From Alphaproteobacteria bacterium (GTDB lineage: Bacteria; Pseudomonadota; Alphaproteobacteria; UBA6615), in assembly GCA_021774575.1 (NCBI GenBank), contig JAJFIX010000009.1, positions 124,001 to 188,000 of the forward strand: DNA of 64,000 nt. The letters run 5' to 3'. Position numbers and translations under genes: made by a program. This document shows, piece by piece, positions 52,439 to 62,661 of the stretch. The notes under the pieces were generated by a model, which was given only the letters and a program-made list of their open reading frames with translations, was not told the origin of the DNA and searched no databases. Position 1 is the first letter of the stretch; each line of letters starts with the position of its first letter.

Positions 52439-55042
52439 ATGGCCGAAAAGCCGACTAGAGATCTTCCCGTTATTAACTGTGCGGAGAATGGACCGTATCT
52501 GGTGCGGGGGTTAAACCAATTTGAAAAATCCGATGGGTCCCCTCTGCAAACTAAAAATGTCATGGCATTGTGCCGTTGCGGCGCTTCGTCAACCAAACCA
52601 TTCTGCGACGGCACCCATGCAAAAATTGGCTTTACCGATGAGAAGCAAGAGGGCCGCATAGGTGACAAGCGCGACGATTATCGTGGCAAGGAGATTGTCA
52701 TTCACGACAATCGCGGTATCTGCTCGCACGCCGGTCATTGCACGGACGGTCTTCCCGAGGTTTGGAAGTTGGGGGTTGAGCCGTGGATTGATCCCGATGG
52801 TGCCTTGGTCGAGAAAATCATTGAGACAATTGATAAATGCCCGTCGGGGGCGCTGAGCTACTCGATCGGCGAAGCCGATTTTGGTGACCGGGCAGGAGAG
52901 CCGAAAATCAAACTGTCGAAGGACGGCCCCTATCTCGTCTCGGGCGGCGTTGGTTTGGAGGGCGTGGCGCGCGGTGAAGGGGCGTCCCAGGAACATTTCA
53001 CGCTCTGTCGTTGTGGAGGCTCGAAAAACAAGCCCTTTTGCGATGGTAGCCATTGGTACAATGAGTTCAGCGATGATGAAGGGCAGGCACAGGACGTCCC
53101 GGCGGATCAAGGCTGGCACAAGGTAGCTGAGCCTGGCGAACTCGCCGATGGTGATGTCAAATCCGTTGCCGCCGGAGGGGTGCAGCTGGCATTGACGCGA
53201 TGCGGTAATGACTATGGTGCACTCGACGGAAGTTGCCCCCACCAAGGCGGTCCCCTCGGCGAAGGCACCACGGCTGAATGCCGCCTGCGATGCCCTTGGC
53301 ATGGTTGGGAATTTGATGCGCTGACCGGTAAATCCGCGCCGGGGCAGGAAGGCGGCAACGTTGCGACCTATCCCGTCGAAATTCGCGATGACGGAATTTA
53401 TGTTGCTATAGAGGCGCCGGCGGCTGCGCCCCATACGATTTCCGACGTCATGATCGAGACCATGGTCAATTGGGGGGTCACCCATGTCTTTGGGATGGTC
53501 GGCCATTCCAATCTCGGGGTTGCCGAGGCGGTGCGTCTGCAGGAAGTCGGTGGCAAGTTACAATTCATTGGCATTCGTCACGAAGGCGCGGCGTCTTTTG
53601 CTTGCTCCGGCTATGCCAAAGTGAGTGGCCGACCGGCCGCTTGCCTGACCATTGCCGGACCAGGTGCGACCAATTTGCTGACCGGCTTGTGGGATGCCAA
53701 GGTTGATCGGGCGCCGGTCATTGCCCTGACCGGCCAGGTTGCCACTCAGGTTTTGGGACCTGGTGCTTTTCAGGAAATTGATCACGCGTCGGCATTTGAT
53801 GCGGTGACTGTTTTTTCCCAAACGGTTCTTCCGTCCAGTCGGCATGCCGAGCTGATGACTCTGGCGGTCAAGCACGCAATTGTCGAGCAGGGGGTGGCGC
53901 ATTTGATCTTCCCCGACGAAGTGCAGGGGATGGCGATCGAGTCCGATGCCCCGGTTTCGGGGCCGGAGGGAAGGGTCGGGCCGACCGGGATCGCCCCACC
54001 GCGCTCAAGTTTGGCCACGGCGGTGGTCAAAATTGCTGCAGCACGAAGACCGGCAATCATTGTTGGCTATGGCGCGCGCCACCATATGGGGCATGTCCAA
54101 ACCCTGGCCAAGCGGCTAAATGCGCCGGTCCTCACCACCTTCAAGGCGAAAGGTCAAATCGCCGATAGCCATCCCTTGGCCGCAGGGGTGCTGGGGCGTA
54201 GTGGCACGCCGGTGGCCAGCACAGCGATGGCAAATGCCGATATGCTGATCGTTTTTGGCGCCTCGTTTGCCAATCACACCGGTATCGATAAAGGCAAACA
54301 GATCGTCCAAATCGACCGAGACCGCATGGCGTTGGGCAAATTTCATCCAGTTGATGTGCCGGTCTGGGGAGACGTCGGTGTAACGGCGAGGGCGTTGACC
54401 AAGGCTCTGCCGGAGCAAATCGCTGGCGTCGACCAACGCGAGGAAATTGCCGCCTCCTGGGCAGCTTGGCGAGAGGAAAAATCACGGCGGGCCGCCGAAA
54501 ATCGTGGCAAGGGTCTGAGTTCGGCGAAGATATTTGAAGTACTGACCTCTGTTGCGCCGGAAAACGCGATCATTCCTGTCGATGTCGGCAACAACACTTA
54601 TTCGTTCGGCAGATATTTCGAGTGCAATCGCCAAACCGTCATTATGTCCGGCTATCTCGGGTCGATCGGCTTTGCTTTTCCTGCGGCGATGGGGGCTTGG
54701 GCGGTGGCGGAAGGGCGCCCGGTGCTTTCAATTAGTGGCGACGGTGGTTTCGGGCAATATATGGGTGAGTTCACCACAGCGGTAAAATACGGAATGAACA
54801 TCACCCACCTCCTGCTCAATAATTCCGAGCTTGGAAAAATTTCGAAGGAACAGCGAGATGGGCATTGGCAGGTCTGGCAGACCTCTATGCATAATCCAAA
54901 TTTTGCTGAATACGCGAAACTCTGCGGTGGCCTTGGTATCCGTGTCGAGACGGTGGAAGATTTGGCCCCGGCCCTGAAGGCAGCGCTGGTTTATGATGGC
55001 CCGGCACTGGTCGAGGTTATTTCCGATGTGGCGCTAGTTTGA
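52439..55042 (+). CDS. CDGSH/mono-cluster/CDGSH/Rieske/thiamine-diphosphate enzyme fusion
   Basis: An 867-residue single protein with five modules. (1) CDGSH Fe-S finger: C45, C47, C56 and H60 in CRCGASSTKPFCDGTH. (2) A divergent 4Fe-4S mono-cluster (Fer4_19-like) part with YRGKEIVIHDNRGIC, HCTDGLPEVW and IDKCPSGALSY, residues about 81-142. (3) A second CDGSH: C190, C192, C201, H205. (4) A Rieske [2Fe-2S] domain: C266-x-H268 and C285-x2-H288. (5) From about residue 333, an acetolactate-synthase/pyruvate-oxidase-like ThDP enzyme: GIRHEGAASFACSGYAK with the catalytic Glu382, AGPGATNLLTGLWDA, and the ThDP motif GDGG…LLLNN. It may feed electrons from a decarboxylation into Fe-S carriers; the substrate is unknown. 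Confidence 0.88.
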   Translation: MAEKPTRDLPVINCAENGPYLVRGLNQFEKSDGSPLQTKNVMALCRCGASSTKPFCDGTHAKIGFTDEKQEGRIGDKRDDYRGKEIVIHDNRGICSHAGHCTDGLPEVWKLGVEPWIDPDGALVEKIIETIDKCPSGALSYSIGEADFGDRAGEPKIKLSKDGPYLVSGGVGLEGVARGEGASQEHFTLCRCGGSKNKPFCDGSHWYNEFSDDEGQAQDVPADQGWHKVAEPGELADGDVKSVAAGGVQLALTRCGNDYGALDGSCPHQGGPLGEGTTAECRLRCPWHGWEFDALTGKSAPGQEGGNVATYPVEIRDDGIYVAIEAPAAAPHTISDVMIETMVNWGVTHVFGMVGHSNLGVAEAVRLQEVGGKLQFIGIRHEGAASFACSGYAKVSGRPAACLTIAGPGATNLLTGLWDAKVDRAPVIALTGQVATQVLGPGAFQEIDHASAFDAVTVFSQTVLPSSRHAELMTLAVKHAIVEQGVAHLIFPDEVQGMAIESDAPVSGPEGRVGPTGIAPPRSSLATAVVKIAAARRPAIIVGYGARHHMGHVQTLAKRLNAPVLTTFKAKGQIADSHPLAAGVLGRSGTPVASTAMANADMLIVFGASFANHTGIDKGKQIVQIDRDRMALGKFHPVDVPVWGDVGVTARALTKALPEQIAGVDQREEIAASWAAWREEKSRRAAENRGKGLSSAKIFEVLTSVAPENAIIPVDVGNNTYSFGRYFECNRQTVIMSGYLGSIGFAFPAAMGAWAVAEGRPVLSISGDGGFGQYMGEFTTAVKYGMNITHLLLNNSELGKISKEQRDGHWQVWQTSMHNPNFAEYAKLCGGLGIRVETVEDLAPALKAALVYDGPALVEVISDVALV

Positions 55043-57923: not shown

Positions 57924-58049
57924 GTTAAACTGAAATTCAATTGAAGTTTGGCCGTGCTTAGGGTTGGTTGGGCATGCTAACAATCGCGCGCCTGAACTGT
58001 CGCTATGGCTGTTCGGGTCAAATGATAACAGAATTTGAGAGGCGATTTC

Positions 58050-58772
58050 ATGGCTGACCGGTTTGGCCCACGCGGTGTTTTCGCCGTCATCATACCGCTG
58101 CAAAATGCCAATCAGCAGCCGGAATATGAATTGATGCGTCCTGAGGGCGTCAATAATCAGGTTTATCGGTTCGATATTTCCGATCAAACCCGGGTTCCCG
58201 AGGCAATGATCGAGGCGGCAAGCGGCACGCTGGGTTGCTGGCCCGACATGGTTGTTTGCGGAAATTCGGTAGAAATGCGCGATTGGTCAGTTGAAAAACA
58301 CACGGCCTACAAGGCGCGTTTGTCCGAAGAGATCGACGGCAAGCCGTTGGTGACGGCAACCGATGCCTGCCATGCCGCCCTGAAGACGCTCGGTGCCAAA
58401 AAAATTGCCATTCTGACGCCAATGGTCGCCCATCATGCAAAAAGTGCACAAGGATATTACGAGGAGGCAGGGTTTGAGGTTGTTGGCTCGACTTGGCTCC
58501 ATGTAAAGGAATCGATCGATATCATTCATGTCACCGTCGACGATATCCTCGGGGCGTTCGATGAGATAGATCGAGATAATATCGACGCGGTTCTTCACTT
58601 GGGTGGTGCCCTCGGCATTATTTCCATGCTTGAGGAATTGGAGGAGAAACTTGGCAAGCCTATCGTTTCGGTCAATGCAGCGGCGTATTGGTATGCACTA
58701 CGCACCCATGGGATTACCGATCCGATACTGGGATTTGGTCAATTGCTGATGCGCGAAGCAATCGGCGACTGA
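58050..58772 (+). CDS. Asp/Glu racemase-fold protein (maleate isomerase/arylmalonate decarboxylase-like)
   Basis: A 240-residue two-lobe protein. Related proteins are aspartate racemase, maleate isomerase and arylmalonate decarboxylase. Visible family parts are VFAVIIPLQNANQQPEYELM, DMVVCGNSVEMRDW (first-lobe Cys), ATDACHAALKTLGAKKIAILTP and IVSVNAAAYWYALRTHGI at the end. The second-lobe cysteine normal for racemases is not at the corresponding LHLGGALGII, so a plain two-base racemase is doubtful. The ATG at 58050 has GAGAGGCG upstream. It is followed 12 bases later by the AMACR-like gene and could be in one operon with it and DUF1330. Confidence 0.78.
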   Translation: MADRFGPRGVFAVIIPLQNANQQPEYELMRPEGVNNQVYRFDISDQTRVPEAMIEAASGTLGCWPDMVVCGNSVEMRDWSVEKHTAYKARLSEEIDGKPLVTATDACHAALKTLGAKKIAILTPMVAHHAKSAQGYYEEAGFEVVGSTWLHVKESIDIIHVTVDDILGAFDEIDRDNIDAVLHLGGALGIISMLEELEEKLGKPIVSVNAAAYWYALRTHGITDPILGFGQLLMREAIGD

Positions 58773-58784
58773 GGCCGGGCTCGA

Positions 58785-59948
58785 ATGGGGCCGCTAAACG
58801 GATATCGTATCGTAGAATTTGCTGGCGTTGGGCCGAGCGCCCATTGCGCAATGTTATTGGCCGAAATGGGCGCCGAAGTGATCCGGATTGATCGGCCGGG
58901 ACCCGGTGGATTGGAGCGGGAGGCCCTGGGCGGCGACCCGTCGCGCAATATCCTTAATCGGTCGCGCCCGTCTATCGCAATCGACCTCAAGCATGAAGGC
59001 GGGATTGAAACGGCGTTGCGTTTGGTCGATCAGGCTGACGCGCTGATTGAGGGCTATCGCCCTGGTGTAATGGAACGTCTGGGCTTGGGGCCGGAGGTGG
59101 TGCGAGCCCGCAATCCAAAACTCGTCTATGGCCGTGTTACCGGGTGGGGGCAGGACGGTCCGCTGGCCAAGGTCGCTGGGCACGATTTGAACTATACCGC
59201 TCTTTCCGGCGCCCTAGCGGCAATCGGTCCGGGTGATGCAATACCGGTGCCGCCGCTCAATTTGGTCGCCGATATGGGCGGCGGGGCTCTTTATCTTGCT
59301 CTTGGTCTCGTCGCGGGGCTGCTTGAGGCGCAAAAATCGGGCAAAGGTCAAATTGTTGATGCAGCGATGGTCGACGGCGCGGCTTCGTTGATGAGTTTTG
59401 TCTGCGGGATGCAGGCGATGGGTCAATGGTCGAAAAGGCCCGAGGAAAATTTTCTGGCGGGGAGGGCGCCCCATTATCAGGTTTATCAGACCCGCGACGG
59501 CAAATATGTTTCGGTGGCCCCTTTGGAAGAAAAATTCTTCAATATTTTACTGGAGTTGCTGGGGCTTGACGCGCCGACCTATGACCGTCGTTCCGACCCC
59601 CTGACGTGGCCAGAACTTTCGGGTAAATTGGCGGCAAAATTTGCCACACGGACCCGCGACGAATGGTGCGCCCTGTTGGAAGGCAGCGATGCCTGTTTTG
59701 CGCCGGTACTTGAATTGGACGAGGCACCCGACCATCCTCATAACAAGGCCAGGGGCAGTTATGTCGTTGTCGACGGCGTGGCGCAGCCGGGCCCGGCACC
59801 TCGGTTCAGCCGAACCCCCGCCCGGATCGGCAATTTGCCGCCGGCGGCCGGTACCCATAGTGTTGAAATTCTCGCTGATTGGGGTTTCGATGGCGCCGAA
59901 ATCGATGACTTGATTAAGAACAACTGTGTGGTTTCCTTTGATCCATAG
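58785..59948 (+). CDS. Alpha-methylacyl-CoA racemase-like CoA transferase (CaiB/BaiF)
   Basis: A 387-residue class III CoA-transferase-family protein. The N-terminal YRIVEFAGVGPSAHCAML with AEMGAEVIRIDRPG, and YGRVTGWGQDGPLAKVAGHDLNYTALSGAL, matches alpha-methylacyl-CoA racemase, in which the His and Asp in and after this region are catalytic. Class III transferases have Asp at a position where this protein reads differently, favouring racemase. It would invert the alpha-methyl centre of branched acyl-CoAs during degradation of branched lipids, sterols or aryl-propionates. It follows the racemase-fold gene at 12 bases and precedes the DUF1330 gene by 72 bases, all on the plus strand. Confidence 0.83.
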   Translation: MGPLNGYRIVEFAGVGPSAHCAMLLAEMGAEVIRIDRPGPGGLEREALGGDPSRNILNRSRPSIAIDLKHEGGIETALRLVDQADALIEGYRPGVMERLGLGPEVVRARNPKLVYGRVTGWGQDGPLAKVAGHDLNYTALSGALAAIGPGDAIPVPPLNLVADMGGGALYLALGLVAGLLEAQKSGKGQIVDAAMVDGAASLMSFVCGMQAMGQWSKRPEENFLAGRAPHYQVYQTRDGKYVSVAPLEEKFFNILLELLGLDAPTYDRRSDPLTWPELSGKLAAKFATRTRDEWCALLEGSDACFAPVLELDEAPDHPHNKARGSYVVVDGVAQPGPAPRFSRTPARIGNLPPAAGTHSVEILADWGFDGAEIDDLIKNNCVVSFDP

Positions 59949-60891: not shown

Positions 60892-62661
60892 ATGCGGGAG
60901 GGGCCACATTTCACGGAGTTGATTTTGTCCAAGTTGAGTCAGCCTCACGATCAGCCCGGTCTCGAACAAAATTCGGATTTCCTGCCGTGCGGCGAATTGC
61001 TGCTGACGATGCTCCGCGAGTGGGGGGCGGGTCAGATATTTGGGATACCCGGCGATTTTATCCTGCCGTTTTTTAAGGTTGTCGAAGAGAGCGGTATTCT
61101 TCCGCTCTATACCTTGAGCCATGAGCCAGGCTTGGGGTTTGCAGCGGACGCGGCGGCGCGCTTCAATAAATCCATTGGCGTTGTTGCGGTTACTTATGGG
61201 GCGGGCAGTCTCAATCTGGTCAATGCCATTGCCGGTGCCTATGCGGAAAAATCGCCGGTGGTGGTTATCTCTGGGGCGCCCAGTATTGCTGAACGTGAGC
61301 GCGGGTTATTGCTCCACCACCAAGTTCGATCCCTCGACGGGCCGATGACGATTTTCCAGGAAGTAACCTGTGCACAGGCGCGTCTCGATGACCCGACGAC
61401 AGCTATCAGTGAAATATCCAGAGTGTTAACGCAGGCGGTAACCCAGTCGCTGCCTGTATATATAGAATTGCCGCGAGACATGGTGATGGGCCCGGTCCCG
61501 GTTGCGTTACAGGCGGACGGTGCGGTCGATGTGAGTTGCTATGGGCGGGGCGCCAAACCGGTTGATGCGGCAACCGAGCCGTCGACGATATTAGCCGTTG
61601 AGACTTGTGCGGCGGAGCTTGTGAGGCGTTTGTCGGAGGCTGAGAAACCGGTGATAATGGCCGGAATTGAAGTTCGACGATATGGCGTTGAAGCCGAGCT
61701 TGCAAACTTAGCCTTACGCCTTGGCGTTCCTGTGGTGACGAGCTTTATGGGGGGTGGCCTGCTGGCCAACACGGTGGTCGAGCCGCGCGGAACCTATTTG
61801 GGCCAAGCGGGTGATCCGGTAATTGCCCATTTGGTCGAAACGTCAGACACCTTATTGATGGTCGGGGTTATTCCCAGCGATACAAATTTTGTCGCGGGCG
61901 GCGACCGGCTCGATTTTTCTAAAGCGATCCAAATCTTCGAACGATCAGTTCGTATGGGAGAAGTCACCCACTCTCCGATCCCATTACCGGCGTTACTTGG
62001 CGCCATGTCTAAGCTGGTTGGGAGTGGCTTGGTTGCGGTGCCGCCGTTGCGTGAACGAGTGGAGCCGGAGATTCCGCTTAGAGACAGCCGACTTTGCACT
62101 GGCGACGTCATCACCGCGGTCAATGCGCTGTTCGATGAAATAGGCGGGCCGATGCCGATTGCGTCGGATACCGGCGACTGTCTGTTCGCCGCGGTGGATA
62201 TGGAAAATGCCGGCATAATAGGTCCGGGATATTATGCGTCGATGGGATTTGGGGTACCTGCCGGAATCGGCATTCAGGCCGCTTCGGGGGTGCGTCCGCT
62301 AATATTGGTTGGCGATGGCGCTTTTCAAATGACTGGTTGGGAGTTGGGCAATTGCCGTCGCTATGGTTTCGACCCGATCGTCCTCTTATTCAATAACCGT
62401 TCCTGGGCGATGTTGGAGGCGATCCAGCCGGGCTCTTCTTTTAACGAACTTGATGATTGGCATTTTGCCGACATGGCCCCCCAACTGGGTGGCGGCGGCG
62501 AACGCGTGTCAACTCGACACGGATTGAAAGCGGCGTTGACGCGGGCGGTGGCGGCGAAAGGGCAGTTTTATCTCATTGAAATTATGCTGGCCTCGCATGA
62601 GATTTCGACGACATTGAACCGGTTTGTCGAGGCGGTGACCGGTCGACAAAAGTCCGGCTGA
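60892..62661 (+). CDS. ipdC: Phenylpyruvate/indole-3-pyruvate decarboxylase-like ThDP enzyme
   Basis: A 589-residue ThDP-dependent decarboxylase. It closely resembles the Azospirillum phenylpyruvate/indolepyruvate decarboxylase in IFGIPGDFILPFFKVVEESG, TLSHEPGLGFAADAAARF, VTYGAGSLNLVNAIAGAYAEKSPVVVIS and LLLHHQVRSLDGPM; the ThDP motif is GDGAFQMTGWELG…NN. Enzymes of this type turn aromatic 2-oxo acids to aldehydes (first step toward phenyl- or indole-acetate). AAAGGGTC precedes the ATG. About 280 bases upstream lie a DUF1330 gene and a FixK-like box, so expression may respond to low oxygen. The gene's 3' end faces the porin, whose terminator lies at 62696-62731. Confidence 0.82.
   Translation: MREGPHFTELILSKLSQPHDQPGLEQNSDFLPCGELLLTMLREWGAGQIFGIPGDFILPFFKVVEESGILPLYTLSHEPGLGFAADAAARFNKSIGVVAVTYGAGSLNLVNAIAGAYAEKSPVVVISGAPSIAERERGLLLHHQVRSLDGPMTIFQEVTCAQARLDDPTTAISEISRVLTQAVTQSLPVYIELPRDMVMGPVPVALQADGAVDVSCYGRGAKPVDAATEPSTILAVETCAAELVRRLSEAEKPVIMAGIEVRRYGVEAELANLALRLGVPVVTSFMGGGLLANTVVEPRGTYLGQAGDPVIAHLVETSDTLLMVGVIPSDTNFVAGGDRLDFSKAIQIFERSVRMGEVTHSPIPLPALLGAMSKLVGSGLVAVPPLRERVEPEIPLRDSRLCTGDVITAVNALFDEIGGPMPIASDTGDCLFAAVDMENAGIIGPGYYASMGFGVPAGIGIQAASGVRPLILVGDGAFQMTGWELGNCRRYGFDPIVLLFNNRSWAMLEAIQPGSSFNELDDWHFADMAPQLGGGGERVSTRHGLKAALTRAVAAKGQFYLIEIMLASHEISTTLNRFVEAVTGRQKSG

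Follow-up and report, generated by a model that had tools for sequence, protein, structure and literature searches.

A single gene in the window (the whole stretch of DNA that was analysed, 64,000 nucleotides) appears to place four Fe-S modules ahead of a ThDP enzyme in one polypeptide. This raises the questions of whether such a protein is real, to which family its catalytic unit belongs, and what the N-terminal modules might contribute to the enzyme.

Gene and domain organization

The gene is an 867-aa open frame which runs from an ATG to a stop codon without an internal stop. From the N- to the C-terminus, CDGSH, Fer4_19, CDGSH, Rieske and TPP_enzyme N, M and C domains were identified, all above their Pfam gathering scores (Table 1), in agreement with the modules and the order that had been proposed in a sequence-only reading of this DNA. 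That reading had also described as intact the ligands of the CDGSH pairs and of the Rieske domain (C266-x-H268, C285-x2-H288) together with Glu382, and all of these residues were found by direct count.

Table 1. Coordinates (window positions) and supporting evidence for the fusion gene and its modules
Feature	Position	Strand	Evidence
Whole fusion gene (P0001, 867 aa)	52439..55042	+	ORF, Pfam; full-length homologues in G206, G253, G152, G107; split in G366
CDGSH (NEET) domain 1, residues 17-61	52487..52621	+	PF09360 (two copies 116.7 bits, cut-off 29.5); ligand residues C45 C47 C56 H60
Fer4_19 divergent mono-cluster domain, residues 81-142	52679..52864	+	PF06902, 79.9 bits (cut-off 24); C95, C101, C134
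CDGSH (NEET) domain 2, residues 162-206 (about)	52922..53056	+	PF09360; ligand residues C190 C192 C201 H205
Rieske [2Fe-2S] domain, residues 226-312, dioxygenase-ferredoxin type	53114..53374	+	PF00355, 61.6 bits (cut-off 20.3)
ThDP catalytic unit, residues 333-860	53435..55018	+	Pfam (TPP_enzyme_N 333-451, M 526-653, C 715-860; about 110-118 bits each), alignment, AF2/Foldseek; E382, K800

Both CDGSH motifs (C-x-C...C-D-G-x-H) are complete and, with the ligand residues in place, each domain is a putative site of a 3Cys-1His [2Fe-2S] cluster. The Rieske ligands are invariant across 49 aligned homologues. Because the Fer4_19 domain contains just three Cys (CSHAGHC...CP, pattern CxxAxxC...CP), a motif kept in the other fusions, its cluster is predicted to be either [3Fe-4S]-like or [4Fe-4S] with a non-Cys ligand. 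The middle domain of the catalytic unit matched PF00205 with 109.9 bits.

Both flanking genes, encoding a Gfo/Idh/MocA protein upstream and a double cupin downstream (ends overlapping by 9 bases), lie on the opposite strand, and the fusion therefore appears to be monocistronic. Comparison of loci revealed no window neighbour that is conserved beside other five-module fusions. Further downstream are an arylmalonate-decarboxylase-like (Amdase) gene (58035-59948, +), followed by a class III CoA-transferase gene, and, 6 kb from the fusion, a second ThDP enzyme (60892-62661, +) identified as an indolepyruvate/phenylpyruvate decarboxylase (TIGR03394, 704 vs 554.5 bits). A substrate guess based on window neighbours (PEPCK and this decarboxylase) was judged too indirect.

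Recurrence of the five-module protein

Among 385 genomes of the class that were searched, four more complete five-module proteins were found, each encoded in a single frame and showing 65% (G206), 60% (G253 and G152) and 55% (G107) identity to the window fusion. In a fifth genome (G366) the coding sequence is divided between two contigs, the ends of which share an exact 83-base overlap; the first carries the CDGSH-Fer4_19-CDGSH-Rieske part together with the beginning of the ThDP unit, and the second the remainder of that unit. Conservation of the architecture had been suggested as a check, and the full order is found in the window genome (G000) and in these five genomes, which belong to four other families of the class.

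The sequence-only reading had named a frameshift near residue 330 as one finding that would speak against it. None was detected, all 49 aligned homologues being continuous in one frame over the Rieske/ThDP junction, and a frameshift or assembly fusion of two genes was ruled out by the homologues with the full architecture in the four other families. Since the five-module layout is repeated in distantly related genomes of the class (55-65% identity), it is real and not an assembly artefact.

The catalytic unit

The ThDP unit has the fold and the catalytic Glu of the pyruvate-oxidase/AHAS group. E382, located in the motif RHE, corresponds to E59 of LpPOX in the alignment and is near-invariant among the 49 core members, and the ThDP-binding motif GDG(767)...NN is present. 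An AF2 model of the core, with pLDDT mostly 80-97, was compared to solved structures using Foldseek, and the closest folds were 2-hydroxyacyl-CoA lyase/synthase (HACL), PoxB, POX, AHAS and PQO; by sequence, the best solved relatives were PoxB and LpPOX. The N-terminal module (first 221 residues) was modelled with pLDDT of 30-56 from an alignment of just three sequences.

The likeness to pyruvate oxidase and acetolactate synthase noted earlier is thus borne out by the fold, the catalytic Glu and the best solved relatives, while an assignment to pyruvate oxidase proper is not. The scores lie far from the NCBIfam cut-offs for this enzyme (NF006377, 390.6 vs 742 bits; TIGR02720, 278.6 vs 637.85 bits), and Phe479 is replaced by Lys throughout the family, from which we conclude that the unit is not a pyruvate oxidase in the strict sense. 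The score for the biosynthetic large subunit of acetohydroxyacid synthase (AHAS) was likewise below its cut-off (TIGR00118, 277 vs 538.35 bits). The lysine, K800 in the motif LGKIS.EQ, is near-invariant among the 49 members and occupies the position of LpPOX Phe479 and PoxB Phe465, the aromatic residue which in POX is found at the ThDP/FAD interface. Because of this exchange POX chemistry is not simply transferable to the fusion.

The Rieske-ThDP core family

For most relatives in public genomes the match is confined to residues 223-867, i.e. the Rieske-ThDP unit. Based on a 49-member alignment and tree, we define here a core family by a Rieske domain attached to a ThDP unit that bears the LGKIS.EQ signature, and both features are present in the fusion. 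Core proteins were found in Bacteroidota, Pseudomonadota, Acidobacteriota, Chloroflexota, Binatota and Myxococcota, as well as on plasmids from haloarchaea and on a single mycobacterial one; covalent linkage of the Rieske domain to the ThDP unit extends over at least five phyla. The core is an old and widespread family which is so far unnamed. The earlier view of the fused modules as one enzyme holds for the architecture, but is refined in that the natural unit is Rieske-ThDP and CDGSH-Fer4_19-CDGSH is an add-on in one subclade.

A ThDP-only protein from Opitutales (L031) lacks the Rieske domain and already has the same lysine, so the lysine is probably older than the Rieske fusion. The window genome contains a second, CDGSH-free Rieske-ThDP copy on the same contig (C45:6843-8810), with 61% identity. 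On the haloarchaeal plasmids and the Mycobacteroides abscessus subsp. bolletii plasmid (L068, L069, L070), the core is found near TauE, mercuric reductase, cation antiporter or dihydrolipoyl-dehydrogenase-like genes.

Gain of the CDGSH modules

In the maximum-likelihood core tree, the five intact five-module proteins, the G366 half and a protein from G024 (L056) form one alphaproteobacterial group with 91/92 support. The core of G361, without CDGSH, adjoins this group, and the window genome's own paralogue was placed in the other group of Pseudomonadota. The G024 protein shares with the window fusion the core subclade and the presence of a CDGSH pair, but its tandem is CISD3-like and Fer4_19 is absent. 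Compared with stand-alone CISD3-like proteins from related genomes, this tandem shows 48-56% identity over 79 aa, whereas its alignment to the CDGSH-Fer4_19-CDGSH modules spans 21-45 aa only. CDGSH domains were acquired at least twice, N-terminally, within one alphaproteobacterial subclade of the core. The independent joining of two kinds of CDGSH protein to the same enzyme argues strongly for a functional link.

The CDGSH-Fer4_19-CDGSH block is attached to the Rieske-ThDP enzyme in half (6/12) of the block-bearing genomes of the class sample. It also occurs as a stand-alone protein (L033, G087, G273 and G587) and, in G027, in a 666-aa protein with a Ferritin-like domain (PF12902; L081:2060-4057, -). 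The fused pair is the sole CDGSH protein of G000, G206, G253, G152, G107 and G366, and nearly all of the related genomes with a bare core possess a stand-alone CDGSH protein. When the core-only loci L004-L032 were screened by tblastn, up to ~6 kb on each side, for a CDGSH gene that might share an operon with the bare core, none was found. The best plasmid matches listed from a plasmid collection were to the core only, the five-module form being absent among them, and neither these matches nor a pattern-based scan showed the fusion outside Alphaproteobacteria.

Neighbourhood of the core and a recurring partner

A Rieske-Glu_synthase (FMN-type) protein is the neighbour found most often beside the bare core, at 27 loci. 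Of the 11 genomes of the CDGSH-free subclade 10 possess it, as compared to 0/20 class genomes without the core (Fisher 2.5e-7) and 0/5 CDGSH-fused genomes (G206, G253, G152, G107 and G024; Fisher 1.4e-3), values which ignore shared ancestry. Replacement of the partner by CDGSH is not strict, since G366 has the fusion plus a GltB-like gene cut by the contig end and the CDGSH-less G361 has no partner; G026, too, has neither partner nor CDGSH fusion. In the window genome the partner is located beside the CDGSH-free paralogue. This locus (L060, G000:C45:1-16810) carries, with the paralogue, a divergent Rieske-Glu_synthase, DUF5996, TauE, malic enzyme and two small genes whose L064 relatives encode an ECF sigma factor and a zf-HC2 protein.

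Also found repeatedly beside the core are DUF5996, cation antiporters, Ferric_reduct-Rieske, TauE, malic enzyme and ECF sigma/anti-sigma pairs. Malic enzyme, which makes pyruvate, was found near the core in four loci. These neighbours suggest that the core acts in a redox or stress context, and they point weakly to pyruvate as the substrate. The Ferric_reduct-Rieske protein (L004:8626-9675, +, and related loci) combines a Rieske domain with a ferric-reductase membrane domain that resembles MsrQ. At L052 and L053 (G253 and G152, of the same family) a gene for IlvD (dihydroxy-acid dehydratase) is located directly upstream of the five-module gene.

Proposed function and alternatives

We propose that the fusion is an oxidative, 2-oxoacid-processing ThDP enzyme from which electrons exit via its own Rieske domain, and that the NEET block is a relay or docking unit which replaces an external partner; we consider the chances of this proposal to be even. 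More tentatively, and at somewhat less than an even chance, electrons would pass from the ThDP intermediate through the Rieske and NEET/mono-cluster centres and on to an acceptor outside the enzyme, and the NEET block would have taken the place of the separate Rieske/FMN glutamate-synthase-like partner.

According to this scheme ThDP would attack a 2-oxo acid, most likely pyruvate, and CO2 would leave to give an enamine. The Rieske cluster would receive the two enamine electrons one by one, with FAD in the middle domain as the probable intermediary. In most relatives this cluster would then reduce the separately encoded Rieske/FMN glutamate-synthase-like protein, and in the fusion the CDGSH - mono-cluster - CDGSH block may be the next station or the docking site in place of that protein. 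A reverse flow, with the clusters supplying electrons to the ThDP enzyme, is possible. Whole-cluster transfer or sensor roles are also possible for CDGSH proteins.

An unlikely alternative is a switch, in which the NEET and mono-cluster domains would sense redox, iron or nitric oxide and gate the enzyme while standing off the catalytic path. This would be consistent with CDGSH clusters being redox-active and transferable (family knowledge; PMC5859297), with the stress-type neighbours of the core (ECF sigma/anti-sigma, TauE, cation antiporters, merA), and with the joining of the block to other enzymes (ferritin-like, G027); but the partner which was apparently replaced is a Rieske/FMN redox protein, which points to electron transfer rather than sensing. 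Of the electron wire and the redox switch that the sequence-only reading had considered, neither is clearly preferred, although the partner co-occurrence and the fact that fusion took place twice independently speak somewhat for the NEET block as a redox partner.

It is improbable that the fusion merely joins the cell's only CDGSH protein, with a general Fe-S/iron role, to an enzyme from its regulon, each half acting on its own. Although the pair is the sole CDGSH protein in the five-module genomes and the block is also found alone, two different CDGSH proteins were fused independently to the N-terminus of the same enzyme subclade, and the fusion was retained for long, over five families. Finally, a non-redox, acetolactate-synthase-like carboligase with structural or vestigial clusters is very improbable in spite of the AHAS/ALS similarity of the catalytic unit and the IlvD gene in G253 and G152, as the AHAS cut-off was missed (277 vs 538 bits), a higher-scoring ~600-aa ThDP gene, probably the standard AHAS, is found elsewhere in G000, G253 and G152, and the Fe-S ligands are all conserved.

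If the electron-relay proposal is true, a CDGSH domain would have a defined catalytic electron-transfer role inside an enzyme. The function of bacterial CDGSH (NEET) proteins is poorly known, and two such domains joined to a Rieske domain and an assayable enzyme turn it into a testable question. The fusion also draws attention to the Rieske-linked ThDP enzymes as an uncharacterised family which is widespread, has an unusual lysine in its active site and is accompanied by a recurring partner protein.

Comparison with known systems

The CDGSH-Fer4_19-CDGSH-Rieske-ThDP fusion is a real redox enzyme design which is apparently undescribed. Its individual modules are known, as are fusions of CDGSH to other Fe-S or flavin domains; it is for the combination with ThDP that a description was not found. 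The architecture had not been recognized as a described enzyme from the sequence, and the literature searched, mostly open-access papers, likewise contained no description of a CDGSH-Rieske-ThDP protein or of any CDGSH-ThDP or Rieske-ThDP enzyme.

The N-terminal block is that of the class II CDGSH/Fer4_19 proteins of Sengupta et al. 2018 (PMC5859297), the difference being that here it heads a Rieske-ThDP enzyme. These authors also report CDGSH together with Glu_synthase, Ferritin-like and Rieske_2 domains, including CDGSH pairs fused to Glu_synthase, and their main text makes no mention of thiamine/TPP. In view of the fusions with Glu_synthase and Rieske_2, the CDGSH and Rieske modules seem to be exchangeable on both enzymes. 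WP_258303504.1 from Haloferax larsenii, annotated as 'thiamine pyrophosphate-binding protein', has the Rieske-ThDP arrangement of the window fusion without a CDGSH or mono-cluster domain; core proteins of this kind are about 52-68% identical to the fusion over the shared region.

The closest solved chains to the Rieske domain are the dioxygenase ferredoxins CarAc (1VCK) and NDO ferredoxin (2QPZ), which are stand-alone electron carriers, unlike the fused domain described here. With E. coli PoxB (3EY9/3EYA), L. plantarum pyruvate oxidase (LpPOX, 1POX) and the pyruvate:quinone oxidoreductase PQO of C. glutamicum (9EV3-6) the catalytic unit shares the N/M/C ThDP fold, the catalytic Glu in RHE, a Phe-Gln pair (F444, Q445) and E804 (equivalent to LpPOX E483). 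It differs from these enzymes in its low identity (~26%), in the near-invariant Lys at the position of Phe479/Phe465, and in the four Fe-S modules which precede the enzyme.
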